64,000 nucleotides of DNA from Paramacrobiotus metropolitanus (taxonomy: Eukaryota; Tardigrada; Eutardigrada; Parachela; Macrobiotidae). Below the pieces are notes generated by a model, which had not been told where the DNA came from, did no database searches, and saw only the letters and a program-made list of their open reading frames with translations. Shown here in pieces: positions 43,636 to 64,000 of the stretch. How positions within the stretch are numbered: position 1 is the stretch's first letter; every line of letters starts with the position of its first letter. Where the stretch lies: positions 434,001 to 498,000 of the forward strand of contig NW_026570236.1 in assembly GCF_019649055.1 (NCBI RefSeq). Direction: 5' to 3'. The position numbers and the translations under genes were made by a program.

Positions 43636-44338
43636 TTAAGCATCCATGGTGACATCACAATATCCGGAGAAACCAGGCACTGCCGGGCACTGACCAGATG
43701 GGACGCAGACGGGGGCACGGGCGCGCTGTCGAACGGTTTCCTCAACGTGGCGGAGAGCGAGATTGGCGATTCCTTTGCAGTCACTGGCTTGGTTGCACGC
43801 CTACATTAAATCACAGCGTTCTGACGCTGTGGCATCACGGTTATGCAATGTGACCTTAGAGACATACCCAAACTTGAGCCTGTTCCGCACCGAAATCCAT
43901 TAAGCAGTGGCAGCGAGCACCTGAGCAAGCCTAAAAAAATGACTAACTAATGAAGTAACAAGTTAACAACTGATGCGAAAACGGCGCATATGGATTACAC
44001 TCGTATAACTTACCAAACCGGGATCGTCGCACATGTTTGTGGACTGGCATGCATCGCCTTTATCCGCCGCTAAAAAAAGAAACAAATTTTTGAGAGATGA
44101 GAACGTTAACATTTGCATACAAAACGTCTGACAATGCTATTGACAAGTCTGACAATGCTACGCTTGTCTGACAAGCGTAGCATTGTCAGACAAGCGTAGC
44201 ATTGTATGACAATGCTACGCTTGTCATACAAAACAGTTGAATATCTTAAAATTATTAATTATGTTACATTAAGCAGATTAGTTAATTACCCTTGACGGCC
44301 ACTACGGCAACGAAAGCCAGAATCAATACGCAGCGCAT
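43636..44338 (-). CDS. Secreted ten-cysteine peptide, EB-module-like
   Basis: Four short exons, in transcript order: 44338-44290 (49 bases), 44069-44014 (56), 43930-43868 (63) and 43800-43636 (165); all introns GT-AG and phases fit, giving 110 residues. Exon 1 encodes a signal peptide (MRCVLILAFVAVVAV). The mature part has ten cysteines spaced C5C6C4C1C13C5C23C5C9C (numbers are residues between). GDACQSTNMC-x6-C-x4-CHC resembles the EB module of nematode and arthropod secreted or surface proteins, and a second, looser half follows. Expected destination is the extracellular space with four or five disulfides. Function unknown: cuticle, innate defence or signalling are all possible. It sits between the ankyrin gene and the sulfatase cluster. 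Intron 1 holds an inverted-repeat cluster. The fully consistent splicing of such small exons plus the signal peptide is the evidence that it is real. Confidence 0.78.
44116..44234. repeat. Nested inverted repeats in intron 1 of the secreted-peptide gene
   Basis: Arms 44147-44168 and 44170-44191 are exact reverse complements (22 bases, one-base spacer). Then 44189-44205 and 44209-44225 form a second exact 17-base pair with a three-base spacer. The core word is ACAATGCTACGCTTGTC, present in alternating orientation, and a partial copy occurs at 44130-44138. The whole is bracketed by a direct repeat CATACAAAAC (44116-44125 and 44225-44234). Confidence 0.9.
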
Positions 44339-46078
44339 GATCACAGTTGTTTAGGCTGGCCGTAATACAAAAAATCCACCCCACGTTCTAGCAAACCGGT
44401 TGAAATAAGACTAAACTGTGCAACTGATTGACCAAGCACAGATATACTGAAATATCCAAGTAGAAACGACTGGCTTTTGCTAACGGAAATATGTCTGTTT
44501 GCCTACAAGTGAAAGGGAAACATTTAATGAGATAGAAAGTGGTGGAAAAAACGCTAAGATAACTCCAGGCTGTCATGATGACACAATTCTATATCTCTGA
44601 CCCGAACAAGCTACCGATTGCCGGCTCTTTATGAAATCAAAGTCAAGAGACGCCGGTTCAACCTCGTTTTCGCTTTCGAATCTGCTAGTGGATCACGGCT
44701 AATATCATGCAAACGGCATGTATGCCGGGCAGTGGCAATTAATATTAACAATACTTCTTCGATCTGGCCGTTGGGCGTGTACAGTAATTAGATTCGACGG
44801 ATTATGGTCATTTATTTCTGACTATTTTCAATACATATTTAGTTAACATTTCATGAAGTTTTGTGCATATGGGAAACGGCAGCAATACCAAAAAGCTAAA
44901 ATATACCAGTCCTCAAATGCGCGGAAGGAAATGTAATTCAATAGCCAAATGTAGGCAGCACTAAAATCTCGAAATTTTAATGCACTCTTGTTCTCCAAAT
45001 ATTTAATTCTTCAAAAATGTTCTTAAAAACAGCTTCGATCAGTTTGCAGTTGATTAAAAAGTTGCAACACCACCCAATAAATTTTATCATCTATTTGTTA
45101 AACAGTGGGCAGTGGGCGCAAACTGAGGTCAACGAATACTAAAAGCAAGTAAGTATATCTATAGTTCCCTGCGTGCTGGTATGGTTTTTTATTACTTCTG
45201 AATTGTAATTGTAGACGTTTTGTGGTAAAATTAAAAGTTGTATGCGGTTTGCTTAATTCATTGATTACATCGAGAATTTTTGCCGACGGGTACGCACCCA
45301 GGTTTTGACAGTTCTGATCGCTGGGTGTCGTTCGTTTTAAACTTCATGATAATATGTCACAAAGAAAACGAATGGCTTGACTTGGGCCAAGATATTCATT
45401 AAAATATGATACTTAGGTATTATGAATAGGAAATCACAAGGACGAGGGTTATTCAATTTAAACATCGCACGATCGCACGTTCAAACGATAAACCAATGGG
45501 AGTAAATTATACCTGATTTCTAATTAACCTTTTTATGAAATCTTGAACTACTTTCAATCATTACGCATGAACTATCGACAGTACTCGGTATATGCTATAA
45601 CCACTGCAGAACTTTTTAACTACCTCATTATTTAAGAATAATAATTAATTAATAACTTAATGCCTGCACGAAACACGGTGAAATATAAAAAGGTCATTTT
45701 AAAAAATGCCAAAGTATTATGGATACAAGGCTAAATAAGCATTTTATTCAACAGGATTTGGCGCTGTGTGGCGTTAACGAACTTGATAAAATTTCACAAT
45801 ACGTAGCCATCCAACCGCAAATTTATTAACCTTGTGTATTTAATTACGCACATGTGCGAATTAACCATTCAGAGATTACATGTTTGGCGCGGCCATATCG
45901 AATGCATGCAAGTGAGTGCATATTAATGCGAATACACCCAATAACCTACAAAAATTCAATTGCAAAGAATTGTAATACATGTTATGGTTATGTCACAATG
46001 GCCTATTATGGCCCGCCTTCCGTAGCCGACTACCACACTGATCGACATATTATTGTACCGTGCAAATTAACAAGACCT
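44339..46078. other. Intergenic region between divergent genes
   Basis: About 1.7 kb of AT-rich DNA separating the start of the minus-strand secreted peptide from the promoter of sulfatase A. No exon, RNA gene or repeat recognised. Confidence 0.4.
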
Positions 46079-46144
46079 ACGATCTGACTGGCGGCAACAA
46101 GGTCTTGATTACAAGCATTCGGATACTTTCATTTTCTTATATAG
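46079..46144 (+). promoter_or_regulatory. Shared sulfatase promoter element and TATA box, gene A
   Basis: ACGATCTGACTGGCGGCA at 46079-46096 matches the elements ahead of sulfatases B and C. A TATATAG box follows at 46138-46144, and the start codon is at 46225, leaving room for a 5' leader of about 50 bases. Confidence 0.6.
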
Positions 46145-46224
46145 AAGGTATCATTCTGTCAAATCGGAGTTAGTTGCTTTCGGTTTCTTCTGCAGCTGTT
46201 GGTAACAAAGCCGCAACTGTAACC

Positions 46225-48852
46225 ATGGCGGCCATTTTCTTATTAACTTTATTGGCGTTTGGCGCCCACGCACGAGTATTTCCTAGCATGAATGAATTCC
46301 AGTTCCGTGCCGGCGAAATGAGCAACCGACAGGCACCGGCCCCACCCGCTACGGGACCGGGCAGTGACCAGGCCTTCGCCATGACGGAAGCGCCCGTTGG
46401 TTCGCCCATCGTCCGTGGTGGCACCACCACGCCCTCATCCAACGACGCCGTGGTGACAACGGTCGCCAGCCGAACACCCTGCTCATCCGGTTCCGGCAAG
46501 ACCTGCAACCCCAAAGGTGGACCCGGTCTCAGCAAACAGCCAAACATTGTTTTCTTCATTGCTGACGATTTGGTATACAGTTTTAATGATGTCAACAATT
46601 TTGGGATACCTTTCATCCAGTGGTATATCATTGGTTTAGGGTCATGCCGATCTCAGTTACACGGAAGGTAACCTCCAGACCCCGACACCCAACATCGATA
46701 AACTGGCTTGGGATGGTATTATCCTCCATCGTCACTATTCCAACCCGATCTGCACGCCCACACGCTCTGCTCTGATGACCGGCAAATACACTTTCCGCAT
46801 TGGTATGCAGACGGCCGCCATCAGTGACGGTGAACCATGGGGTGTGCCTCTTCAGTTCAAGTTCCTGCCACAGTACATGAAGGATCTCGGATACGATACC
46901 TATGCTACCGGAAAGGTCGGTTTAGTCAACTAAGACTACTCAATACTATAAAACCGATTTGATCCATTTGGCATTTGGATAATCAATTTTCGTTGCGTTA
47001 CAGTGGCATCTTGGACAGTACAACCGTGCCTCTCTGCCATGTAAGCACATGCAGTTTGTTTTTTTAAGGGTTCCCGCAAAGGTCTAATTATTCATAGCAG
47101 TTAGACAATGCGAACAAAAATAGTGTAAACATATGTACGAGTATGTTGGTTTCCGTCGTTTACCGGCAATTCTATTTTATGGTGATTCCCTTCTGAGTAG
47201 CCTTCACCTGTACAGCGCTCATTGACTAACTAAACGTTTTTACAGCTAGCCGTGGATTTGACCAGTCTGTCATGTTGATGGCTGGAGATGGCAACTGGTT
47301 TAACTACACCACCGGATGGGTAAAAAAACGTTTTAATTTCAATCAGCTAAGTGCGCAAAAGTTCACACGTGTTTTATTTAGATTACACCATACCCCATGG
47401 CTGGCAGAATGATCCGCGAGAACGGCAAGATTCTGTTCGCCAACATTACCAACAACAACTACTTCCCCGAGCTGTGTACCACCTATGCCGAGAAGTGGAT
47501 TCGCAACCACAACCCCAACAACCCCTTCCTGTTGTACTTCGCTAGCACTGTGCCGCACACTGCCTTCGAAGACTACGGAGCCGTTATGCACACCATGCCT
47601 CAGTACCAACTCCGCCCACCGGTCTTCTCCTTCACCGACAAATACCCATCGCGCAAGAAGTGCATTGGTAAGTTCCGGTATCTTTGTATTTGTCGGCAGT
47701 TGAAATATCGGTGACCTTGTGTTTCTCTCCAAACAGCGACAGCAATTTAAAAGCCGTGTAAGCATGATTTAAGTTATACATTTTTTTGCAGCCACCATCC
47801 AAGCGCTGGATGAGCAGTTCAAGCGTGTCACCGACGCTCTGACCTACAAGGGCATCATCAACAACACCATCATCATCTTCTTCGCCGACAACGGCGCTCC
47901 AATTCCGTCGTCCTACCAGTTCGTCCACGGCAGCAACCACGGCAGCAACTGGCCGCTGCGTCAAGGCAAGGGTGTCATGTTCGAGGGCGGAGTCCGCACC
48001 AACAGCTTCATCTGGTCGCCGCTTCTGCCCAAACGTGGACGCATCACCAACCAGCTGTTCCACGTCAGCGACTGGCTGCCCACCGTCTACGAAGCTGCTG
48101 GCGGAGATGTCAACCAACTGGGTGACAAGCCGGGTGACCTTAGCGGCATGAGCCAGTGGAAGTCGTTGTACAGTAAGCCGTCTTTTGAACTAATGGTATT
48201 AACGTGAGATACATTTAAAGCGACTTTTTTTGTAGATGGTTTGAACTACGGACCTCGAACTGAATTAGTTAACAACATCGATACAATCAATCCTCAGTAC
48301 GCTATGATCTACCAGGATACTTATGGTGGTTTGTACAAGATCATCGGCGGAAACATTTTCGACAACTCTTTCTTGGGATGGTAAGTAATTTAGTCTGTCG
48401 CAATTCAATCCTAATCTGCTTAAGTACAATTATTTCAATCCTAATCTGCTTGGGTACAATTATAATCGATTTTATCCAGGTACCGCACGCCCGATACCTC
48501 GGACTCTAACCCACAAACCGTCTGGACGCCGGCTGCCACAGAATGCAACTTCCCGGCTGGTGTGGAAGTTAGCAAATGCGTTCCCCATCTGTCTCCGTGC
48601 CTCTTCGATTTGGTTAACGACCCTTGTGAACTGAACAATATTGCGGCCAGCTACCCATCTATGCTGCAGCTGCTTAGGGACAAAATTACCGCGTACAACG
48701 CCACTGGTATTCCCTCCGAAATTAAACCATTCGACCCGGCTGCCGATCCCGGCAAATGGGGAGGTTTCTGGGTGCCATGGAAGGATCCCGTGGAAGTTGT
48801 TGACAACCCACCGCTGACCTTTATGCCATTCAACCCGTCCAGCTCGTATTAA
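46225..48852 (+). CDS. Secreted arylsulfatase (ARSB/I/J type), copy A
   Basis: Eight exons: 46225-46572, 46640-46915, 47004-47040, 47246-47319, 47382-47667, 47792-48172, 48236-48380 and 48480-48852; 639 residues, all in phase. Signal peptide MAAIFLLTLLAFGAHA, then a short Pro/Ala linker and a conserved extension (GPGSDQAF, VRGGTTTPSSNDAVVTT, TPCSSGSGKTC) before the sulfatase fold starts at PNIVFFIADDL. Catalytic features of the family are present: metal-binding D114-D115, CTPTR at 154-158 (Cys to be converted to formylglycine), GKWHLG, TVPHTAFEDY, IIFFADNG and RQGKGVMFEGGVR with the conserved Lys. Sulfatases of this type remove sulfate esters from glycosaminoglycans or small molecules; the substrate is unknown. 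The short exon coding WHLGQYNRASLP is only 37 bases. Upstream are a TATA box and an element shared with B and C. A is nearly identical to B in two stretches, suggesting gene conversion. Confidence 0.92.
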
Positions 48853-51727
48853 GAGCTCACTATTTTGGTGGAGTATTTGTATGGATGTTTTTTCTACGCA
48901 CTTCGTTGTTCAGTTACATTGACACAGTATGTTGTAAATTTTATTTTGCGGACTGATACATAGTTGTATGATATTTTGGACAATGCATTTTCATGCTGGT
49001 TTTACCCAAAGTGGCCCAACAACTATGAGAATGTTTTTGAGAATATCAATTTGGCCAAAGGTTTTGTGATAAAAAGCTCTGAAGTTGTTTCTAATTTTCA
49101 TGGTTAACGAAAACTTTATGTACGAAATTCAAGAATTACCGGAATACCAAAATTGATGCGAAGATTGCATTTACAAATCTTTAATTTAAACAAATTTTAT
49201 TAAAATTTGTGCTACGGAAGTCGCTAACTGTACACGTATATTGGTAGCTCGTAAAAGCTTTGCTTCAAACCCCTATAATCTGCGCATACGGAAAATGAAA
49301 TAAGTACTATGCGAACAGCATCATGGTTTCATAAAAATATCAGCTGTGAACGTCTTAGTTTTGATGGTGAACACTGATACTGGCTTTTGTTCTAAATTAC
49401 CGGAAATTATTGATCCAACGGCTCTGTTAATTAATTGCAATAGTTTCTTAACCCAGAATACTGGATGTATATACTCGTATATATATACTGTATACCGGAC
49501 ATTTGCTTCGCAAAATGTTTTAACCTAATTTTTTATAGATGAAGTGCAGACTTCGAAAAACCCCAAAGGCACATCCATGATCCAACACCATTCTTAATTT
49601 CTGTATACGAATAAATCATAGAATTATTCTGGTGCTATGGTACTGGCAGTTCGACCAATGGAAACAACCAGTAAAAGTTTAGTGACTCTATAATTATATT
49701 GTAGCTTTGGTCCTGATGGTGAAAAAAATGCGCACGATACAGTAGGGAGGAACTGCATACTACCTGGCGATATAGAAGATGAATGCTCTGTCCCGGTCTG
49801 TATCTGCAGTACCGTATTACGTTTTGACTGTTGCAAATACAAACTGGCCATAAACTTGTGAACAAAAAAATCGAAATTTTAGGCACACTTACTTTACGTG
49901 TTTTCAAATTGCCTTTGTTCTACGAATTGCTGTGCTAAACATATTTGTTCATAATCTCAACTAAATTTAAAAAAGGCTTTTACTAGTACAACGGTACAAC
50001 CTCACTTCAGAGTATTACAAATACAGTATGTAGTTCGCGTAAACTGACCTTGTAGCCAATGGCTAAGCACCCCTCTCAACGATGCCGTTGCGTACTTACG
50101 GAGACCATTACCGGCAGCAAAACTTGAACACGAGCATACCAGTCTGTTCTACAAAGAAGTGATCCATATGGATACATGAATTACGAAGAAGAAGTCACGA
50201 GAATCCAGATTGTAAAGTATCGGAAAGTCCAAAAGGTGCCGGTGCTGCTGTTGCGCAAACAAGGACAGTCGTCTATATGCATTTAATGATTCAGCGCTGC
50301 TAAAGAAACCTCGATTCCTGTTGTACGCAACTCCTATGTTAAGGAAAACGTTGTGACCAAACAGAAAGATAAGATGATTCTTAAGTGTCAACAATTAGTT
50401 TCGGTAATTGGCTCTCTTGTTCATGTTGTGGCTTGTGGGAACTGAATGGGAAAAGAGCCGAAAGCGTACTGATGACCACTCCGTCCACAACCTTTCACTA
50501 TTTTTCACTCCGTACGTGCACTACCTCAACCACTCAATCACTCGGTACGTTGCATTTTCGTTGTTTGCTTTTAACCTTCTCCTTGGTTCTCCACGTCGCT
50601 TTCCAACTTCTTTTCAGAAAAGTTTGCAGTAGATTTCCACACTATACCGATATTTTGCAATGCAAGAAATTTTTGCGAATTATCCTTGTGCGCTCGCCCA
50701 TTCCTGGGTTTTATGTTCAGATAGAAGTACAGAGTACTTCTATCTCTGTACTAATCGCGGAGAAAATATAGCTGCTTTTTACATAGCTCGTGTAACCACA
50801 GTACTACCTGAAAGTAGGTGCATTTTACAAAACATTCACAGGATTGAAACGAACGCGCAGCGGAAACCAAATGATAAATTAAATTAACCCGGTTTTACTG
50901 CAGCCAATAAAAGTCGTTTTCGTATACAGAGTAGAAGCTAAGGTAGCAGCGGCAAAGGTTTTAATCGGAAGGAAAGGTGGTAGTGCACCGAGTAAAAGGT
51001 AGAAAAAGATTCAATATTGTGAATGGATTGGTCACCATTCGAATTTGCAGCCTGTTTCACAGGAAACGTATTAAATAAAACCCACAATACGCCGAGTAGT
51101 GCTTACAAATACCGGTAACTGTAAGCGGAAAATAACAAAGGTCGATAATACTGATTTTTTTTACCGAGTATAGCAGTCTCTTCGATCTGTGCAGTAGCTT
51201 CAAATTATACAACAAATTGATAACGAAAATAATAGTACCATTTTGTAACGTCTGAGCTTTTGATTTTCCCAGACTTCCTTATTGGCCGTGATCACACCTG
51301 GGATGTAGGAAAATACCGGCATGTTACCACAGGCTGATGATTGGTAACTAATCATCTTCTTTCTTGGACATCGGACAAAAAATTTTACACAAATTACCTG
51401 TGATCGAAGCGACCGCTATGCACTATGCACTTAGTTGCATAGTGCTTAATTACGATCGAACTAGACTACCCTAGTAAACAAAACCACGCTGCAACGGGAA
51501 AAGTCGCGCTGAAGTTAACATACTGTGCAGCTTAATTAATTAGACCAATGAAAACACTCATTGTGCGATTTGAGACATTCTTACCATAATCTAGCTGCTG
51601 TGGTCATAGAGTTTTGTGCTGGACTGCTACAGGTATCGCGTACGTTGTCCGGCAAAACGCATCAGCCTATCTGTTTCGCGATCGCTTTTGTATTTTGTTA
51701 CACTAGATATCAGTTGTAAGAAGGCCC
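48853..51727. other. Intergenic region between sulfatases A and B
   Basis: About 2.9 kb, AT-rich. Contains a perfect 12-base inverted repeat (50719-50730 with 50734-50745) and another near 51420-51445 around GCACTATGCA. A 34-codon open stretch from about 50176 looks weakly protein-like but is unsupported. No gene recognised. Confidence 0.4.
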
Positions 51728-51779
51728 ACGATCCAACTGGCGGCAAAATATACCGATTGTGCAATGACCCCGTATAAAA
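51728..51779 (+). promoter_or_regulatory. Shared sulfatase promoter element and TATA box, gene B
   Basis: ACGATCCAACTGGCGGCA at 51728-51745 differs from the A and C elements at two central bases. TATAAAA follows at 51773-51779; the start codon is at 51896. Confidence 0.58.
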
Positions 51780-51895
51780 TAATGATAAAACATACATTAG
51801 CTTTGTCGCGTAGTTGTTAGACATTCACAACGTCTGCCTTCCTGTCATATTCCCTCAGCTTGGTGTCTCCGCAGTTAGCGGAAATTACCAAGAAA

Positions 51896-54800
51896 ATGGC
51901 CTTTACGTATTACTTATGTATTGCCCTTATGATAATATCTGCCGAAGCTGGACTATTACGGCCTGCCATTCTTCGGCAAAAGGCACTTAAAACTGCCATT
52001 GATAATGCCAAAATACATGCTAAACAGGCAGCGGTAGGAACGACAAGTTCATACTATTCTATGGGTCCATCGATGGCCACGCCGGCACCGACCGCCGGGC
52101 CCACTATGGGACCAACTATGGGACCTTCGATGGGACCTACGATGGGACCCACAATGGGCACCACCTACGCACCCACCACAAAGGGGCCAACCATGGGGCC
52201 AACTATGGGACCAACTATGGGACCAACAATGGGCCCAACTATGGGACCGACAATGGGTACCACTTACGCACCAACTATGGCGCCAACAACAAAACCCACT
52301 GCACCAGCAGCAACCACTTATGCTTCACCTGGAATGCCTCCTGCTACACCCCCGGGAACACCGCCGGCAACGCCTCCAGGAACACCTCCAGCAACTCCTC
52401 CTGGGACTCCACCGGCAACTCCACCTGGCACACCGCCCGCAACGCCTCCAGGAACACCGCCAGCAACTCCGCCTGGCACTCCACCAGCAACTCCTCCCGG
52501 TACACCACCAGCAACCCCACCCGGTACGCCTCCGGCTAGCGGACCTGGAAGTGATCAGGCGTTTACCATGACCGAAGCGCCCGTTGGCTCACCACCTGTG
52601 CGCGGCGGTACCACCACACCGTCCTCCAACGATGCCGTGGTCACTACTATCGCAAGTCGAACGCCGTGTTCTTCCGGTTCCGGCAAGACCTGCAACCCCA
52701 AAGGTGGACCTGGTCTCAATAAGCAGCCAAACATTGTCTTCTTTATTGCCGACGATTTGGTAGGCAGTCAGTCTTGTAATCTTGCGAGATACGTCACAGT
52801 GTGTTTTTGTAATTTGTCTTAACCTTAACAGGGTCATGCCGATCTCAGTTACACGGAAGGTAACCTGCAGACCCCGACACCCAATATTGACAAGCTGGCC
52901 TGGGATGGTATTATCCTCCACCGTCACTATTCCAACCCGATCTGCACACCCACGCGCTCTGCTCTGATGACCGGCAAATACACTTTCCGCATTGGTATGC
53001 AGACGGCCGCCATTAGTGACGGTGAACCGTGGGGTGTGCCTCTTCAGTTCAAGTTCCTGCCTCAGTACCTGAAGGATCTCGGATACGATACCTATGCTAC
53101 TGGAAAGGTCAGTACCTGTTATTGTTTGGTTGTTCTTCGATCAGATACCCACAACCACTACAGAGTACATATCTTCAACATTCCTCTTGCAGTGGCATCT
53201 TGGTCAATACAACCGTGCGTCGTTACCATGTAAGTAACTACGTAGTTCGATTCTTTACTTACTGTTACCAGCACTCGGTACAGCCAGCCTGGCCCTAAAT
53301 GATACTTGGTTAATCCTAATTCCAGAATTGATGACCCTAGGGTGTACGGTATTTCAAAATCCTGCAACAGGGTTTGCTTTCACCTCGGACGCTAATAATT
53401 AGGGTGTCTACACCTTTCCCAAAAAACTAACTTAAATTTTTTTTGTCCTTGAAATTTTGCAGAGTAATTAAGAGGATTTTTTTTCTAAAATCGTCTAAAA
53501 ATTCTTGTATATTTGGATTTACGAATATGGATTTGGATTTGGATTTGCGGTTCACCATCAGAGAAAAACTAAAATCCGCATAGCATTGATAGTCGACTGT
53601 GTGTCGCGATCGTACTACACAGTAGGCTCACCTTGCAGCGTAATCTTTTCCATATAAAAGAAAAACTTGAAATTTGTTTAGAAACCTTTTATTATTGGTG
53701 GGCGGGTTGATGCCGGTTTTTGCGAAAGCAGAATGTGTCATTCTTAATTACAGCTCTTCTGGGCGAACTTATCGCTGAACGTTCGGCAGAAGCAACGGTC
53801 AAAACCAAGCTCAGATTTGTAGGTTACCGAACTAAACGATTGAAGCCCTCAATTGTTCTCGTAGTAAGAAGGCGAAAATGATGGACTGATTTTCAACAGA
53901 ACGCGAAAACACAACTAACTGTAAATGTCAGCAACAATGAATCATAATCTAGTAAACTTTTAATGATGGCTAATTGCAACACTTTATTTACAGCGAGCCG
54001 CGGGTTTGATCAGTCCGTCATGTTGATGGCAGGAGATGGCAACTGGTTCAACTATACCACTGGCTGGGTACGCACTCTGGTTCAAAAATTCATAAAATTA
54101 ATATTTCGGTCTAAAAATTTAGTATTAGATAGTAATACCATGCAGTATTATCATAAACCGTACACTGAATTGTAGAATTAAGATACTTACATGTACGATA
54201 TAACCGGCAAGATGTACGTTCGCATCAGAAAAGCATTTTTTCTACATCCCTTATTTGCGTACAATTATCGCTTTGCAACAGATTACGCCGTATCCCATGG
54301 CTGGCAGAATGATCCGTGAAAACGGCAAGATTCTGTTCGCCAACATTACCAACAACAACTATTTCCCCGAGTTGATGACGACCTATGCCGAGAAGTGGAT
54401 TCGCAACCACAACCCCAACAACCCTTCCTGCTGTACTTCGCCAGCACTGTGCCGCACACTGCATTCGAAGATTTCGGCGCCGTCATGCACACAATGCCTC
54501 AGTACCAGCTTCGACCACCGGTCTTCGCCTTCACCGACAAGTATCCATCGCGCAAGAAGTGCATGGGTAAGTCATGGCACTTCTTCTAGTTTTATGATTG
54601 TATCGGGGGCAATTTGTAAATATTATTTCTTTGCTAGAGATGTTTTATTTTTGGAAATAACTTTTTCAAGACGCAATCGCTCACCGGAAAATTTCTTTTT
54701 TAGCCACTATTCAGACACTGGATGAGCAATTCAAGCGTGTCACCGACGCTTTGACCTACAAGGGCATCATCAACAACACCATCATCATCTTCTTCGCCGA

Positions 54801-55753
54801 CAACGGCGCTCCAATTCCGTCGTCCTACCAGTTCGTCCACGGCAGCAACCACGGCAGCAACTGGCCGCTGCGTCAAGGCAAGGGTGTCATGTTCGAGGGC
54901 GGAGTCCGCACCAACAGCTTCATCTGGTCGCCGCTTCTGCCCAAACGTGGACGCATCACCAACCAGCTGTTCCACGTCAGCGACTGGCTGCCCACCGTCT
55001 ACGAAGCTGCTGGCGGAGATGTCAACCAACTGGGTGACAAGCCGGGTGACCTTAGCGGCATGAGCCAGTGGAAGTCGTTGTACAGTAAGCCGTCTTTTAC
55101 AATAATACTGTGAAAACTTACGATATGTTGCATTAAGATGGACTTCTTCGTAGATGGTTTGAACTACGGACCTCGTATGGAACTGGTTAACAACATCGAC
55201 ACTATTAATCCTCAATATGCCATGATCTACCAGGACAGCTATGGTGGAATCTACAAGATTATCGGTGGCAACATTTTCGACAATTCTTTCCTTGGATGGT
55301 AAAGATGGCAATGCAAACGAAGAAACGTTTTCGTACGTATTTCTTGTTGTCGACGTATTATTCATGGAATTTCATTGCAGGTATCGCACACCAGACACTT
55401 CGGACGCAAACCCGCAGACAGTATGGACACCAGCAGCTACTGACTGCAACTTCCCGCCGGGCGTTGAAGTTAGCAAATGCGTGCCGCATCTGTCGCCATG
55501 CCTGTTCGATTTGGTTAACGACCCATGCGAACTGAACAACATCGCTGCGACCTACCCAACAATGTTGCAGTTGCTGCGAGACAAAATTACCGCGTACAAC
55601 GCCACTGGTATTCCCTCCGAAATCAAACCATTCGACCCGGCTGCCGATCCCGGCAAATGGGGAGGTTTCTGGGTGCCATGGAAGGATCCCGTGGAAGTTG
55701 TTGACAACCCACCGCTGACCTTTATGCCATTCAACCCGTCCAGCTCGTACTAA
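51896..55753 (+). CDS. Secreted arylsulfatase (ARSB/I/J type) with mucin-like repeat linker, copy B
   Basis: Eight exons: 51896-52759, 52832-53107, 53193-53229, 53994-54067, 54282-54566, 54704-55084, 55154-55298 and 55381-55753; about 811 residues if one base is restored. Signal peptide MAFTYYLCIALMIISAEA, then an amphipathic segment (EAGLLR..., shared with C), about ten GPTM/GPSM units, eight exact TPPGTPPA-type units (24 bases each, codons varied), the conserved Cys-containing extension, and the sulfatase domain (D286-D287, CTPTR at 326, GKWHLG, FFADNG, QGKGVMFEGGVR). The repeats should be heavily O-glycosylated, extending the enzyme from a matrix or surface. Exon 5 is 285 bases where A and C have 286: a run of three Cs at 54422-54424 stands against four in A, breaking the frame after HNPNNP. 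Everything downstream remains conserved, so this is a consensus error or a very young mutation. Confidence 0.88.
52104..52533 (+). repeat. Coding minisatellites in sulfatase B linker
   Basis: Two adjacent coding repeat arrays: 12-base units encoding GPTM or GPSM (about 52100-52265, interrupted by GTTYAPTTK-like spacers), then eight 24-base units encoding PPATPPGT (about 52338-52529). Third codon positions vary among units while the residues do not, which points to selection on the protein. Confidence 0.88.
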
Positions 55754-58700
55754 GAAGTTCTTGTAAATAAGTATTGTTAGCTCTTGATGAGTTGACACAG
55801 CGCTCTTTTTCGGCGCAGGCACATTTCAAATAAGATTTTTGGAGACTACGTTCAATCGTATCGGTAACTGTTATTTACTTGGATTGTTTGTAAAATTGGT
55901 AAATAGGGGAACTGAATAATCCAAAACACCCATGATGAGCAAAAGGTTCAAGAAGCAAATACGACGAAATACGACGAGTATTTTCACGACAAACGGTCAC
56001 TTCCACTATACATTTGGAACAACCGGTCACTGGTCCCCATGTGGCTTGCTACATAGTTAATTTCTAATCCTAGTTGAAATAACGCTTGCAATGCAAGTCA
56101 GATTTGAATGCACATCAAAACCTATTTTCCGGCCATACCCTTGTGCGCAGCCAAACGAGAGAGCGAAAATAGGGGACAACAAATGGGAATGACCGATTGT
56201 TAGTAATGAACAGGCAAAGCGACTGGGTGTTAAGAAAAACCAAAGTAGAGCTTCTCAGCCATTAAAATTTTTACTCGATTCGGGAACATCAGCACAAGCA
56301 CGACCACTTTCGTTATCGCCCACTCCCAAGCGCTTTCTGTATCGTTTTATGACATTGTGCCTACATCAGTACTGTAAAATATTATCAGTACTTTTCTACA
56401 TAAGCGAAAAAACAGTTGGTGCCCGCGACATTCGGTGGTGGAGTTATGGAAGAAATAAGATTCCAAAATGTTTAAACGAAAAAGTACACCAAAGGTGCCA
56501 TAATAAACTTCTTTCTGAAAAATGCAAAGAAGTAGAAAGATCGTTTTAATCCGTTTTTCTTAAGTTAACCAACGAATTTAGATTTTAAATTTCATTTTAA
56601 AATTTGAAAATAGTTCCAGTATTTCGAATGAAAACGACCTTGATATTTATGTGGTTTTTTTTTCAGCAAAATGAAAGATCGGTCTATGTTGCAAGACTTT
56701 TGGCACGCTCGTTTGGGTTAAAAGTTTTTGGAGTCTTATTTTATCCATAACATCCCAAGAGAGTACGTGTTGCGCGCATTTGACGGTTTTCTCGCCAATG
56801 GAAACAAATTTTTTAGTTATATCATGAATTGATGAGAGTACGCAAAAGCGAAAGTACTCGTGCATGTGCTGATTTACACAAATGGACCGTGTCATTTCCC
56901 TTAACGACAGTCTGCGATATGGACCAGGGTCGGCTGGCTACCTGGCTCGCGCAAATGGAATCCAGAGGCATGTGACACAAAAACGACACACGTTTGGACT
57001 GCTAACGACTGCCTTTGAACAAGAGAACTGTGTCCGGCGTGAGACGTGAACTGCGCCGACACTGATGCCCGGTCTACTCTGGATCAGAGCAGCGAAGGAG
57101 CCGGAGCGACGTCGACCAGGCCGAAGCTGATAACGTCATGAATTAGAACTCCCTTGATCATATCGGGACTACACGAGTTGATCCCTGTCGGATTCCAGAC
57201 ATTCGGAAGTTCAGCCAAGACGCCCATTGAAGAGATAGGAAAAATGGTTTTCCTATAATCCGGCGAGATTCGTAACCATGCGCTTTTGAGTCAGAAGATC
57301 GTTATTCATTTTTAACAATTCAGCGAAGTAACACTGCTTTTGTCAACGATAGTGTCAAAAATGTGGTAAACACTCGAGCACAGAATTAAATTTTGATAAT
57401 GTTATTGCGCTCATGTTGCACTTTTCTTACTCGACCCTGAAACTAAAAGGGTAGTAATTCAGTACTTGCTCTAAATATTTATGGTTGTTTTTGTTAGTAG
57501 CTAGTGGCTGTGGTGTCTTTTGCAACAACCGAGGGGTGACATGATATGTATTGTACAATACTGATGGTGAGGCCTGCTGTAAACTTTAAACGATACACGG
57601 GACAAGCGGTCACAGGCACTTGGACTGCGAGTTCTAAGCAGTAAAAAGATGTCGCATGACGTTGGTTAAGTACTGTCATTTACCTGCTCAATATAGTGCG
57701 ATCCACATAGTACTGGTGACCTTTGCACAGAACGTTGTCTAATCAAAAAAATGTATGAAGAACTGATGCTCAGCGGAAGTGCGATTCCAAAAAAGAATAG
57801 TGTTCGACATCAGCAAACCCTGTAGATGGGACCGCAGCTTCAACTGGAACATGCAGTTAGTGATCACACATAAAATACATACCTGTCCTCTATGCATATT
57901 TCGGTGGATCACTACTGAAGTCCGGAGGGCAGATATTATACGCGTACGGTATACTTATTCATCCTTGCGCAGCACCACCACCATGTGGACGCAAATGTTC
58001 AAACGAAAACGATTTTCTGCCAACATCCGTGAAAGCTTTCGACTAACTTGTAAGGTTGTATTGATCAACGGTCAGCACGAGCATAACACGCGAGCGCCTA
58101 CAACACCGAAGCAGCCGGCAGTCAGTAATAAAAGACCACGGTCAACGAAATACAGAGTAGTGTATTATACAGTAATCACTTGTCGATATTCACCGAACTC
58201 ATAGCACCATGACACTGCAACAATCTGATGTAATGTTGATTGTTGTGGGAAATTGCTAATTGGTGTAAACGTTTGCAACATATCATAAACTCTGTCCAAG
58301 CACATGAAAATTCCATTGGTGCGTGTGCTACACCAACGAATGGGCGAGGTTATGTAACAACGGTTTCATATGTCGAACTATTGCACTGTAATTCGATGTG
58401 CGTAGAAATGTTCGCGCCAATTAAAGGGTTAATTAGGTGTCATTACATGGACAGTCTGGCTGTCTGTCCATCACCCACTAAAAGAGCGCTTTACACGTTC
58501 GTAACAATATGCAAATTCGTATCCGTGTCTGGATTTGCGGGATCAGACTTGAGCACATTTTCCCCATAGCATCACATGGCCCCGTGCAACCCGGACGTAA
58601 CATAAATATGCTGGTCAGATGTGCAAATTTTTGCATTTTTTTAAAATTTAAGAGAAGAACAATTCAATTACAGAGAGCACAGCCATACTTTGCAATTGCT

Positions 58701-58851
58701 TTAATCGGTTCGTTGTTTCAAAAACGGTGCCAGCAAAGTAATTAATAAGTAATTAAGCATTAAGGATTCATTAATCAGATGCAGACAGGAAATTCATTTG
58801 CAAATTAAGGTAATCCAGTTATAACTCACTGAATGGTCTTTAGGAAGGTAC
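55754..58851. other. Intergenic region between sulfatases B and C
   Basis: About 3.1 kb. The left half holds a possible eroded LTR-retroelement piece (listed separately). The right half is AT-rich with several short open frames that look random, including a 75-codon basic frame from 57981 with a fair start context but no supporting splice or family evidence. Confidence 0.4.
56198..57300 (+). mobile_element. Possible remnant of an LTR retroelement
   Basis: A stretch of about 214 bases starting TGTTAG and ending AACA (56198-56411) is followed two bases later by TGGTGCCCGCGACATTC, which resembles a tRNA primer-binding site. Downstream sequence to about 57300 is compositionally different from the flanks but has no intact gene. 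It is clearly broken; no second LTR was found. Superfamily not assigned; it looks old. Confidence 0.25.
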
Positions 58852-58927
58852 ACGATCTGACTGGCGGCAGACCGAGCGAACGACTCAAAGCACTACGAAC
58901 ACAGCAAGTTAAGAAAACAATATAAAG
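58852..58927 (+). promoter_or_regulatory. Shared sulfatase promoter element and TATA box, gene C
   Basis: ACGATCTGACTGGCGGCA at 58852-58869 is identical over 18 bases to the element of gene A. TATAAAG follows at 58921-58927; the start codon is at 59029. Confidence 0.6.
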
Positions 58928-59028
58928 TTGGTGATTTGGCAGATTTCTGGCACCAAACATGCGGTGGCATTGATCACTGCTGCCACATGTGTTTGTTCGC
59001 TTCACGCCGAATATATCAAATTATCAAG

Positions 59029-61709
59029 ATGTTGTTTACCACTTATCTGCCTGTTGCTCTGGTGGTCGTATGTGCCGAAGCTGGTCTTCTCCGTTCCCGA
59101 CAAATTCAACTGCAAAATGCTCTTCAAGCGGCTAAGCTGCAGGCAAAGCAGTCCATGGGTAGCGGTACTACGCCATACAATTCCATGGCGCCCTCAGCTA
59201 CTCCAGGATCCGTGACCTCGGTGCGACAATAAGAGCTAATAACGACTGCTTTCTATCACGTATTCACCAAATTCTAGGACTGCATGTGTGCTGCATTTAG
59301 GGTTCAAATGTGCCGTCATCGTCGGTGCCGGTGCCGGCAACAGTAACGGCTGCCCCTTCAGTTCCAACACCACCAGCGGGACCAGACATTGTGTCTTCTA
59401 CAAGTGGTCCAGCCACACTGGGGACACTTCCAGCCAGCGGACCAGACAGTGAACAAGCTTTCACCATGACAGAGGCACCAGCTGGTCGGCCAGCTGGAAC
59501 TGTTGTGGGCGGCACCACAACGCCGGCATCCAACGACGCGATCGTGACAACGGTAGCTAACCGACCGGCCTGCTCCGGCGGCTCCGGAAAGACATGTAAT
59601 ATCAAGGGTGGACCCGGACTCAGTCGACAACCGAACATCGTCTTTTTCTTGGCGGACGATCTAGTACGCGATCGTCAGGAATAGACCAAAACGGAATTTA
59701 CAGGCGATTTGTGATTTAGGGTCATGCTGATCTCAGCTACGCCTCGGGTAACCTGCAGACTCCCACTCCGAATATCGACAAACTGGCTTGGGACGGCATC
59801 GCCTTTTCTCGCCACTATTGCAATCCAATCTGCACACCCACGCGATCTGCTCTGATGACCGGAAAATACACATTCCGCATTGGTATGCAAACGGCCGCCA
59901 TCAGCGACGGCGAACCATGGGGTGTTCCGGTTGAATTTAAGATGTTCCCGCAGTATATGAAAGATCTTGGATACGATACTTGGGGTGTTGGAAAGGTAGG
60001 TTGTGGATCCGTTATGTTGTGGCGGAGTTCAATTCCGTAACTTTTGGGTCTTTTAGTGGCATCTTGGACAATCTGTTCGCGCTTTCTTTCCATGTATGTA
60101 CAAGAAAACATAAGAAAAACCTTATGATATAAAAGCAATGGTTCAAGCGGAATATTGACCTTTGGACTGCTGTTCTATTCTGCAGCAAGCCGGGGCTTTG
60201 ACCAAACGTATATGTTGATGTCCGGGGATGGTAACTGGTTCAATTACACAACAGGATGGGTAGGAAAACTAACCGCCGAAAAGTATAACCACAAGCCCAT
60301 CGTTACCTATAATTTTATTCTCTAGATCACACCTTTTCCAGTGGCAGGGAAAATGCTTCGAGAAAACGGAAAAATTGTCTTTGCAAACGTCACGAACAAC
60401 GCGTTCTTACCAGAACTGTTCACAAATCATGCCGAGAAATGGATACGAAATGCCAATCCGAATAATCCATTCTTCTTGTACTTCGCGACGACGGTGCCCC
60501 ATACAGCGTTCGAAGACTACGGTGCCGTTATCCATACAATGCCACAGTACCAACTCCGTCCATCAGCTATCTCTTTCACGGACAAATATCCAAGCCGCAA
60601 GAAATACTTGGGTAATTAATTACTTCCACGCTCAACCATACTGCTGCTAAAATGTTATTATCTAAGAACTGTATAATCGTAGCCAATATCCAGTTACTGG
60701 ACGAGCAATTCAAGCGAATCACCGACGCACTGACGTACAAAAGCCTCATCAACAATACCATCATTGTGTTCTTTGCCGACAACGGGGCTCCTATTCCACC
60801 CTCCTATCAGTTTGTACACGGTAGCAATCACGGAAGCAACTGGCCGTTACGACAAGGCAAGGGCGTCATGTTTGAGGGCGGTGTTCGCACTAACGGTTTC
60901 ATTTGGTCGCCTCTTCTGCCTAAGCGTGGGCGCATAACCAGCCAGTTGTTCCACGTCACGGATTGGTTGCCGACAATGTACGAAGCCGCCGGTGGAGATG
61001 TTAACCAACTGGGCGACAAACCGGGTGACCTTAGTGGCATTAGCCAATGGAACTCTCTCTACAGTAAGCTTCAAATTATTCAATCAAGAGAATGACACCT
61101 TACAAAATAATATTACAGACGGGCTGAATTATGGTCCTCGCACAGAACTGGTGAATAATATTGATGGTACAAATAACCAGTACGCGATGATCTATCAGGA
61201 CACGTATGGTGGTTTGTACAAGCTCATCGGCGGAGAAATATTCGACAATAGTTTCCTGGGATGGTTAGGCAACGCTTGACTGCGCCATATTTTATATGAA
61301 ACTTTTAAAGAACTGCAACTGTTTAAAATCTAGGTACCGTACACCGGGTACCTCCGACAACGATCCGCAGACCGTCTGGACACCGTTAGCCGTTGACTGC
61401 GTTTTTCCACCGGGTGTGGAGGTCAGCAAATGCGCACCACATTTGAGTGACTGTTTATTTGACCTGGTCAACGATCCTTGCGAGCTGAATAACATCGCTG
61501 CGTCTTACCCTTCTATGCTTAAGACGCTGAAGGACAAGATTGCCGTGTATAACACAACGTTTTTCCCATCAAGAAAAGTTTCTTACGATCCGGCTTCCGA
61601 TCCGGGTAAATACTGGGACGGCATCTGGGTGCCCTGGAAAGATCCTGTGGAAGTTATCGATAACCCACCTCTTACCTTTTTACCTTTTAACCCCTCCAGT
61701 TCGTACTAG
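59029..61709 (+). CDS. Secreted arylsulfatase (ARSB/I/J type), copy C
   Basis: Nine exons: 59029-59220, 59301-59663, 59720-59995, 60057-60093, 60186-60259, 60326-60611, 60683-61063, 61119-61263 and 61334-61709; 709 residues with no break. The N-terminus has an extra intron compared with A and B. Signal peptide MLFTTYLPVALVVVCAEA, an EAGLLR segment with a Gln/Ala-rich amphipathic stretch as in B, a non-repetitive Ser/Thr/Pro/Val linker, the conserved extension (GPDSEQAFTMTEAP, CSGGSGKTC) and the sulfatase domain: D183-D184, CTPTR at 223, GKWHLG, TVPHTAFEDYG, FFADNGAP, RQGKGVMFEGGVR. Two donors are weak (GTGCGA after exon 1, GTTAGG after exon 8), but phase supports both. It is the most diverged of the three extended sulfatases and shows no conversion tract with A or B. 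A strong polyadenylation signal (AATAAAATAAA) lies at about 61779. Confidence 0.91.
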
Positions 61710-61777
61710 GTCAAATGCTTTTGTAGCGTTTGTACATAATTCTTGTTTATTATCACAGTTTGTACATAGTAGAAATC

Positions 61778-61789
61778 AATAAAATAAAC
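61778..61789 (+). terminator. Polyadenylation signal of sulfatase C
   Basis: Overlapping AATAAA hexamers about 70 bases after the stop codon of sulfatase C. This is the clearest polyadenylation signal in the window. Confidence 0.6.
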
Positions 61790-63075
61790 ATGGTGATGGA
61801 GATGAGAGAAAATGAAATAAATACTCGTATCTTTCTTATATTGTCTTTGTACACATCCGGAACATTAAAGGCAAAACGAACCGAGAGAACTAAGTACCGC
61901 GCAAATTTCACTACGAGTACCACTGTACCAGCATGCACTAATGCTATGAACTGGCCCTGTGCAGATTTTCCGCGCATTAAGCACGAACGAACGAACAGAT
62001 TTCGAACGGAAATGTGCTGATGTCATCCGTAACTGCAGCTGCAGATTTTTTAATTCGCAAAACTTGCGACAAAAACCGCCAAGATGTTATATTTCATACA
62101 CATGGACATGGGCTTGCTGAACAAACTACTCTTCAGAAAGAGCACTCACGCGAGTCCAGCACTTGCGAAAGGCGGAAATAAACCGGCCAAATTTCCCTTT
62201 CTGACAAACAGAGTTTAGTGGAAGAATTATTTGGTATCGAATGGTTTAAAGTAACCCACCATTCTGCCATATTGGACGTGGTGCTCTAGGCCTCTGTTAG
62301 GGCGTTCAGGGATTTTCGGCGCTTATTAATCCCATCCAGTGAATTTTAACCCTTTCTATTGCTTCTGATGGCACTAGTAGGGCTTCCTTTACTTTATGGG
62401 TTTTACATTTCCCCCATTTTTTACCGTTGCCCTTATTCAGTGGGATGCCAGCCAGCACTTACTGGTTAGCACTACCTTACGCCATACGCGGCACTGACTT
62501 GTGAGATAAGGAGTTTAGCTATAGAGAAGTCTTGGCCAAACAAAACTGTGTGTAATACGTTTTGGCTGGGTATTTGCTGTTTACGAGTGAATATTTTGTT
62601 TACGAGTGAATATTTTGCTTATATATTTACATATTTGGAAACGCTATGATCCAGCCGCTAATCAGAAGATACCATAGAATGTGAGCGGATAACGAACCGG
62701 TAATCTACGTACTACGCTTACTCAATGACTAAACTACCTATATACAGATACATAGTAACCAACCAGAAGAAGCAGCAGTGCTCAATCGTACGGTACGTCT
62801 ATAGCATGCAAGTTACAATGCACTTACTAAACGCTCAGAATTTCCGATATCTGATAAGTGCTTTAGGTTAACACACTCAGATGCAAATACAAGATTAAAT
62901 AAAAGATGCATTCCAGACCAAAACACTGAAAGTGGTCGAATACCCGCAATGTGCATTTTGCACGGTTCCCGAATATAACGCGTTGTTAAGTTTTGACGGC
63001 AGTTTTAACGGTTGATATTAGAGAAGAGAAAAAGCTTAAGTAAGCTTTAAAAATAGGATGCGATAAAAATTTGAC
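61790..63075. other. Intergenic region between sulfatases C and D
   Basis: About 1.3 kb. The segment 62160-62510 differs from its flanks in base composition and looks like the end of some dispersed repeat, but I cannot assign it. A 19-base unit (TTTACGAGTGAATATTTTG) is present twice in tandem near 62580-62618. No match to the A/B/C promoter element was found here. Confidence 0.35.
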
Positions 63076-64000
63076 ATGGCTGATAAGAGAAGTTTGTTAA
63101 TTTTCTGCATCATATGGATTTGCGGCTCACACTGTAAACAGCGAAATAAATCCCAGAAACCAAACGTAATTTTAATTGTGGCGGATGATCTGGTCAGTTT
63201 GAATTTCAATGCGAATCTGCACAGACCGAATAACTTAATTTGCGCCAGACCCCAACCATTGCATAAACCTGTTTCAGGGGTGGAACGATGTTAGTTTTCA
63301 TGGATCTGCTCAAATTCCAACGCCAAACATTGACCGGCTTGCGAAAGAAGGAATTATTTTGAACAATTACTATGTTAACCCCATTTGTACACCATCACGA
63401 GGTGCTTTGCTAACAGGAAAGTATCCGATCCATACTGGTAAGATTCGGAAACCGACAGCTTTGTGGCAAGTATGTACAACTATTGCATTGTCAATAATGC
63501 TGTTCTAGGCTTGCAGCAGGATGTTATTTACGGTGTCGAACCATGGGGACTGGGCTTAGAAGAGAAGCTGCTTCCTCAGTTCCTGCGCCATATGGGCTAC
63601 AAAACACACGCTATTGGAAAGGTATACGTAACTGGAATATAGATGTTATGGAAATTATGCATTCCGCAAGGAGTTTACGATGTAACTGAAAAGCGCAGAA
63701 GTGAGTCCTCATGCGTGTTTACTGCTGCACCGTAGTATGAAGCTTTGAGGATGGCGAACATCAAAAACAAAACGCCCTGGTGATGAGTGACAATGCCGAA
63801 GTCTTATTAGACTTGAGAATTGTTCAGTAAATTAGTATTAAAGATCGCTATTTGTTGAAAATGGACGAGGTGGCGAATATCATCCATTGTTTGCTCCACA
63901 CCTTTACACGTTTCGCCTTTTTTAAACAGTCAGAGCTTCTTGTATGATTACGGTATTGTAGGTCGCTGACTGCAGTGCCATTTGACCTTTTGATTTTTAG
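63076..64000 (+). CDS. Arylsulfatase (ARSB/I/J type), gene D, partial (3' end outside window)
   Basis: Visible exons: 63076-63192, 63278-63437 and 63509-63621, in phase. The window ends at TTTTTAG, exactly where the acceptor before the WHLG exon is expected, so the gene continues to the right. About 130 residues are visible: a hydrophobic signal peptide ([20 protein letters not shown]), a very short spacer, then [12 protein letters not shown] with metal ligands D37-D38, GWNDVSFHG, and [14 protein letters not shown] with the formylglycine Cys at 76. It lacks the long extension of A-C, has the commoner CTPSR form of the motif, and lacks the shared promoter element. Its early intron positions (after ADDL and after the GK before WHLG) match A-C, plus one extra intron after the CTPSR region. 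Confidence 0.87.

Follow-up and report, generated by a model that had tools for sequence, protein, structure and literature searches.

Organization of the sulfatase cluster

The window analysed in this study is the 64,000-nucleotide stretch C16:434001-498000 of the 169,799,020-base, 533-contig genome of Paramacrobiotus metropolitanus, and the genome-wide scans covered the whole genome. A passage in PMC11191345 indicates that Paramacrobiotus sp. TYO was later treated as P. metropolitanus. Three spliced sulfatase genes, A (46225-48852), B (51896-55753), and C (59029-61709), lie in tandem on the forward strand of the window, and a fourth sulfatase on the same strand occupies 63076-64000 and continues past the window. 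Gene A was modelled with eight exons encoding 639 aa. Its exons match PF00884, with two exon pieces scoring 50.6 and 51.1 bits (Pfam cut-off 25 bits), and its best PDB match is N-acetylgalactosamine-4-sulfatase (1fsu_A, E 2.2e-67, residues 103-616 of A). B and C were assigned to the PF00884 sulfatases because they are identical in part to A. A genome search gave exon 2 protein identities to A of 99% for B and 86% for C, and the next-closest genomic sulfatases reached 81, 79, 74, 71, and 68% over 57-58 residues. The model of C has nine exons and translates without a stop, and its start appeared by eye to be homologous to that of B. The fourth gene, whose piece at 63239-63508 scored 45.6 bits against PF00884 (Pfam cut-off 25), is more distant from A, B, and C. 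None of the papers searched pairs "Paramacrobiotus" with "sulfatase".

The active-site stretch C-T-P-T-R of the animal arylsulfatase B family (PF00884, PDB 1fsu) is also present in the genes downstream of the element described below. Unlike that family, A, B, and C have N-terminal extensions before the enzyme domain, Pro/Thr-rich in B and C, and among the other sulfatases the five nearest showed no such extension in exon 1. The extension of B is a Pro/Thr/Met-rich repeat region in exon 1 (52065-52550), where runs of a 12-base repeat, with GPTM and TPPGTPPA-like units, stand between the signal peptide and the enzyme domain; the extensions of A and C differ from it and are shorter. At 285 bases as assembled, exon 5 of B (54282-54566) is one base short of the 286 found in its A and C counterparts, and the reading frame breaks when the exons are joined. 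This break is either real or an assembly error. A section of PMC8277472 describes the published assembly of the organism as built from nanopore reads and polished with short reads, so the paralogues, being near-identical, may have been misassembled at this point. Elsewhere in the window, at 44147-44231, we observed a 19-base repeat array of alternately inverted, GTCTGACAATGCTACGCTTGTC-like units.

An 18-base element upstream of A, B, and C

An earlier note on this DNA had reported two exact copies of ACGATCTGACTGGCGGCA, at 46079 and 58852, and a third copy differing at two bases, at 51728; our window scan bore this out. The element occupies 46079-46096 upstream of A, 51728-51745 upstream of B, and 58852-58869 upstream of C. 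These three, all on the forward strand, were the only matches in the window at up to three mismatches; 100 dinucleotide shuffles of the window gave a mean of 0.04 matches, and none contained three. In the 700-bp stretches upstream of A and C the longest common word was 18 bases, compared with a maximum of 15, reached once, in 2000 dinucleotide shuffles. The longest words common to B and its neighbors were 11 bases with A and 10 with C, lengths often reached by shuffles and not exceptional alone. The B copy counts because it occupies the equivalent place and matches there, in register, at 16 of 18 bases.

Each element was also said to be followed by a TATA box, and this proved correct. TATAWA begins at +59, +45, and +69 from the first base of the element in A (TATATA, 46138-46143), B (TATAAA, 51773-51778), and C (TATAAA, 58921-58926), all on the forward strand. 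From the last base of the element to the ATG (46225, 51896, and 59029) there are 129, 151, and 160 bases, respectively. In all three genes the element lay on the same strand and at an equivalent place before a TATA box, compared with a TATAWA background of 2.7% of starts in the window (47/1722) to 3.6% in 14 other loci (357/9988), both strands. We also compared 10-base words common to the three upstream stretches at up to one mismatch and found 14 such positions in A (mean 1.45 and maximum 7 in 20 shuffles); three of these belong to the element, and the rest are AT-rich and scattered at unequal places.

The sequence flanking the element had been described as not alike. This description held for the 3' side, where the 12 bases next to the element showed 8/36 pairwise agreements (p 0.75), but not for the 12 bases on the 5' side (46067-46078 in A, 51716-51727 in B, and 58840-58851 in C, forward strand), where ungapped alignment gave 22/36 agreements (A-B 8/12, A-C 6/12, B-C 8/12). 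The fraction of random triplets matching this agreement was 0.0002 for the 12-base length, which was picked after looking at the data, and 0.0035, 0.0012, and 0.016 for lengths of 9, 15, and 30. Since the likeness runs about 12 bases further upstream, the block is nearer 30 bp and consists of TTARSAAGRYMY then ACGATCYRACTGGCGGCA. A, B, and C all fit the pattern TTARSAAGRYMYACGATCYRACTGGCGGCA, and the unchanged halves of the block are ACGATC and ACTGGCGGCA.

Divergence of the sequence around the block

The view of the earlier note that the element is not simply undiverged duplication was confirmed: A and C agreed at 119/279 four-fold degenerate sites, and most introns were unalignable. Agreement between A and B was 199/282, a value raised by two tracts that appear to be of gene-conversion type. 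In exon 6 (47792-48172 in A, 54704-55084 in B) about 340 bases are identical and four-fold sites agree at 57/59, and the 3' ends of exon 8 (48480-48852 and 55381-55753) are near-identical. Seven or more of 100 shuffles equalled the observed likeness in 20 of 21 intron comparisons; only A-B intron 6, beside the exon 6 tract, stood out.

The upstream 700 bases beat all 200 shuffles in each pair, narrowly for A-B (35 vs 32) and B-C (33 vs 32), and the 3' flanks of A and C beat 200/200 shuffles by a similarly narrow score of 31 vs 30. It is not unusual for such flanks to share an isolated short match: an AT-rich 18-mer matches at 17/18 positions between the 3' flanks of A and C (49291, 61808), and a 17-mer is common to 51196 and 61067. 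These matches are two-copy, AT-rich, and at places that are not equivalent, and the element is unlike them in being G+C-rich and present in three genes at equivalent places. Its 18/18 identity between A and C exceeds the conservation of its neutral surroundings, as judged from the four-fold sites and introns.

Search of the genome and of other sulfatases

Exact copies of the 18-mer were found in the genome only at A and C. At up to three mismatches there were 124 places, compared with 62 for a reversed control pattern, and the excess consisted partly of repeats, namely eight matches in the C16:788-793k satellite, the copies of one variant, a C11/C55/C165 repeat, and three C4 copies. The C11, C55, and C165 near-matches have a common repeat context. 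The satellite (L022, C16:786000-795900) is built of ~147-bp units in two inverted arms and carries near-matches to the 18-mer.

We examined 69 of the 121 non-trio places among the matches listed, 60 with three mismatches and 9 with two, counting C4 once; two further C4 copies, the eight C16:788-793k satellite matches, several ACGATCCGAGTAGCGGCA variant copies, and others were not counted. The class of TATA-linked sites that the earlier note had suggested scanning for did not emerge, as TATAWA stood at +40..+75 in 2 of the 69 places and the background predicts 1.9 to 2.5. A third place (L100) has TATAWA at +39, one base short of this range. Judged by the refuting outcome that the earlier note had set, the matches beyond the trio are scattered with no tie to TATA boxes. 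All 11 places beyond the trio with up to two mismatches were inspected. The C22 place lies inside an open frame, and the C44 and C112 places (C18-type) have TATAWA at +141 and +72. At C4:3170189, 3178363, and 3186520 a near-identical segment occurs three times at ~8.2-kb steps, each with a two-mismatch copy of the element and none with TATAWA within 250 bases; these copies are one recent tandem segment repeated, and their flanks are identical. The frames downstream of them look adenylate-kinase-like by eye.

An extended pattern, which included part of the 5' extension, occurred at 16 genome places compared with 12 for its control, and it was found without mismatch only in A, B, and C. Outside the trio it had one place with two mismatches and twelve with three, and none of these 13 places, all inspected and six of them already among the 69 above, had TATAWA at +40..+75. 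A combined pattern of a 10-mer core plus TATAWA gave 6 places versus 2 in the control. This pattern missed C because its gap is longer, and the four places other than A and B have 6 or 7 mismatches to the 18-mer, two being copies of one repeat. At E <= 0.001 the promoter stretches of A, B, and C each matched only themselves in the genome. These results do not support a genome-wide regulon, since the TATA link occurs at the background rate among the 69 places examined and the extended pattern at 16 vs 12 places. The data establish the sequence, strand, and position of the block in A, B, and C, its preservation amid saturated surroundings, and its restriction to this trio.

We then considered the other sulfatases. 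The reported absence of the element from the fourth sulfatase was verified, its best match to the 30-mer having 13 mismatches. Within 1500 bases upstream of this gene and the five nearest sulfatases, with start codons chosen by hand from open frames, the best 30-mer matches had 10 to 13 mismatches, as did random window stretches (n=29). Among more distant sulfatases (~1.5 kb around the matched exon), the best match to the 18-mer had four mismatches and lay past the exon (L046). Two other sulfatases (L056 and L057, on C49 and C71) have a common 16-base word, AAATGCTGTTTTTACC, at -208 and -193 from the chosen starts, and this word may possibly be a second paralogue footprint.

Interpretation of the block

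We consider it probable that the block is a proximal promoter site of ancestral origin, retained under purifying selection by all three tandem copies and likely bound by a factor. A ~30-bp site would have been inherited from the promoter of an ancestral extended sulfatase, purifying selection would keep it in the three tandem copies as the surrounding DNA turns over, and a sequence-specific transcription factor would most likely bind it ~45-70 bases ahead of the TATA box. The best reading is a regulatory site serving the three genes, as the block has persisted amid diverged introns, silent sites, and most of the flanking sequence. The proposal of a binding site co-regulating A, B, and C was supported in part, as a preserved regulatory site, and the scan suggested in the earlier note revealed no genome-wide class of such sites among the places examined. 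Selection on a cis-regulatory site appears well supported within this one genome and co-regulation of A, B, and C is plausible, and from the sequence we infer protein binding, activation, and joint expression of the three genes. Counting against this reading, only three copies support it, all from a single gene family in a single genome.

That all three genes carry the element is sufficiently explained by common descent of their promoters from one ancestor. In one alternative, the block is a functionless remnant of the duplications that stayed unmutated by chance; in its favor, the genes are tandem paralogues whose common promoter descent is certain enough, and B carries two changes. Retention of 18/18 bases by drift would nevertheless have a probability of ~2e-7 per site set (0.427^18, from the A-C value of 119/279), and the introns and right flanks retain no likeness, so we regard a remnant as improbable. 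Recent gene conversion, which would have copied the element between promoters, draws support from the A-B tracts in exon 6 and at the 3' end of exon 8. The identical pair, however, is A and C, which lack such a tract in the exons compared: 40-bp windows of A-C exons 2 and 6 agree at 26-38/40, and identical runs in exons 2, 4, 6, and 7 reach at most 18 bases. A tract of 18 bases would also be unusually short for conversion, and this origin seems more improbable than a remnant.

We rate lower again the idea that three promoters by chance contain a genome-wide regulatory motif or part of a dispersed repeat. It finds support in the doubled number of matches at up to three mismatches, in the 6 vs 2 places of the 10-mer core plus TATAWA, and in the near-matches held by the C11/C55/C165 family and the C16:788-793k satellite. 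It is largely refuted already by the visible repeat copies among the extra matches, the exact copies at A and C only, the 2/69 places with a TATA box in position, and the extended pattern matching perfectly only in the trio; moreover, the flanks of the repeat families are by eye unlike those of the trio, whose promoters have no other genomic match. Least likely of all is that the element works not as promoter DNA but at the RNA level, within a 5' untranslated region or a small RNA. The start sites are as yet predicted, which leaves room for this explanation, but the TATA box lies 3' of the element in all three genes, so the element should lie outside the transcript, and no Rfam family matched in 44000-64000.

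For the preferred reading of a preserved promoter site, the lack of a wider site set points either to a long, demanding factor site used here alone or to a composite of two adjacent sites; in the composite, the parts ACGATC and ACTGGCGGCA would be common elsewhere and their pairing would not. As candidate resemblances we considered G+C cores that we take to be YY1-like or Mad/Smad-like. Like RNA polymerase II TATA-box core promoters, each of the three promoters has a TATAWA, here downstream of the element. Core-promoter elements keep fixed spacing, whereas the distance from element to TATA box varies here by 24 bases, which favors an activator site over a fixed-spacing core element. The arrangement resembles promoter footprints of tandem paralogues, in which a short block likewise lies upstream of the TATA box amid diverged surroundings in one gene family. 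It differs from them in that the block was matched to no named factor site, in a taxon whose promoters appear to be little studied. The case is a modest example of promoter evolution and not a new system.

If real, the site would offer a compact handle on tardigrade gene regulation, comprising a predicted factor site, three natural promoters with different sequence beyond the block, and near relatives that lack it. It would also show that paralogue comparison can single out a regulatory site when no closely related genome is available. A further possibility, speculative and rather doubtful, is that the block is a dedicated ~30-bp module whose factor serves only this secreted, extended sulfatase cluster in Paramacrobiotus. 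If such a private switch were true, the tardigrade lineage would have evolved its own control for one enzyme battery.
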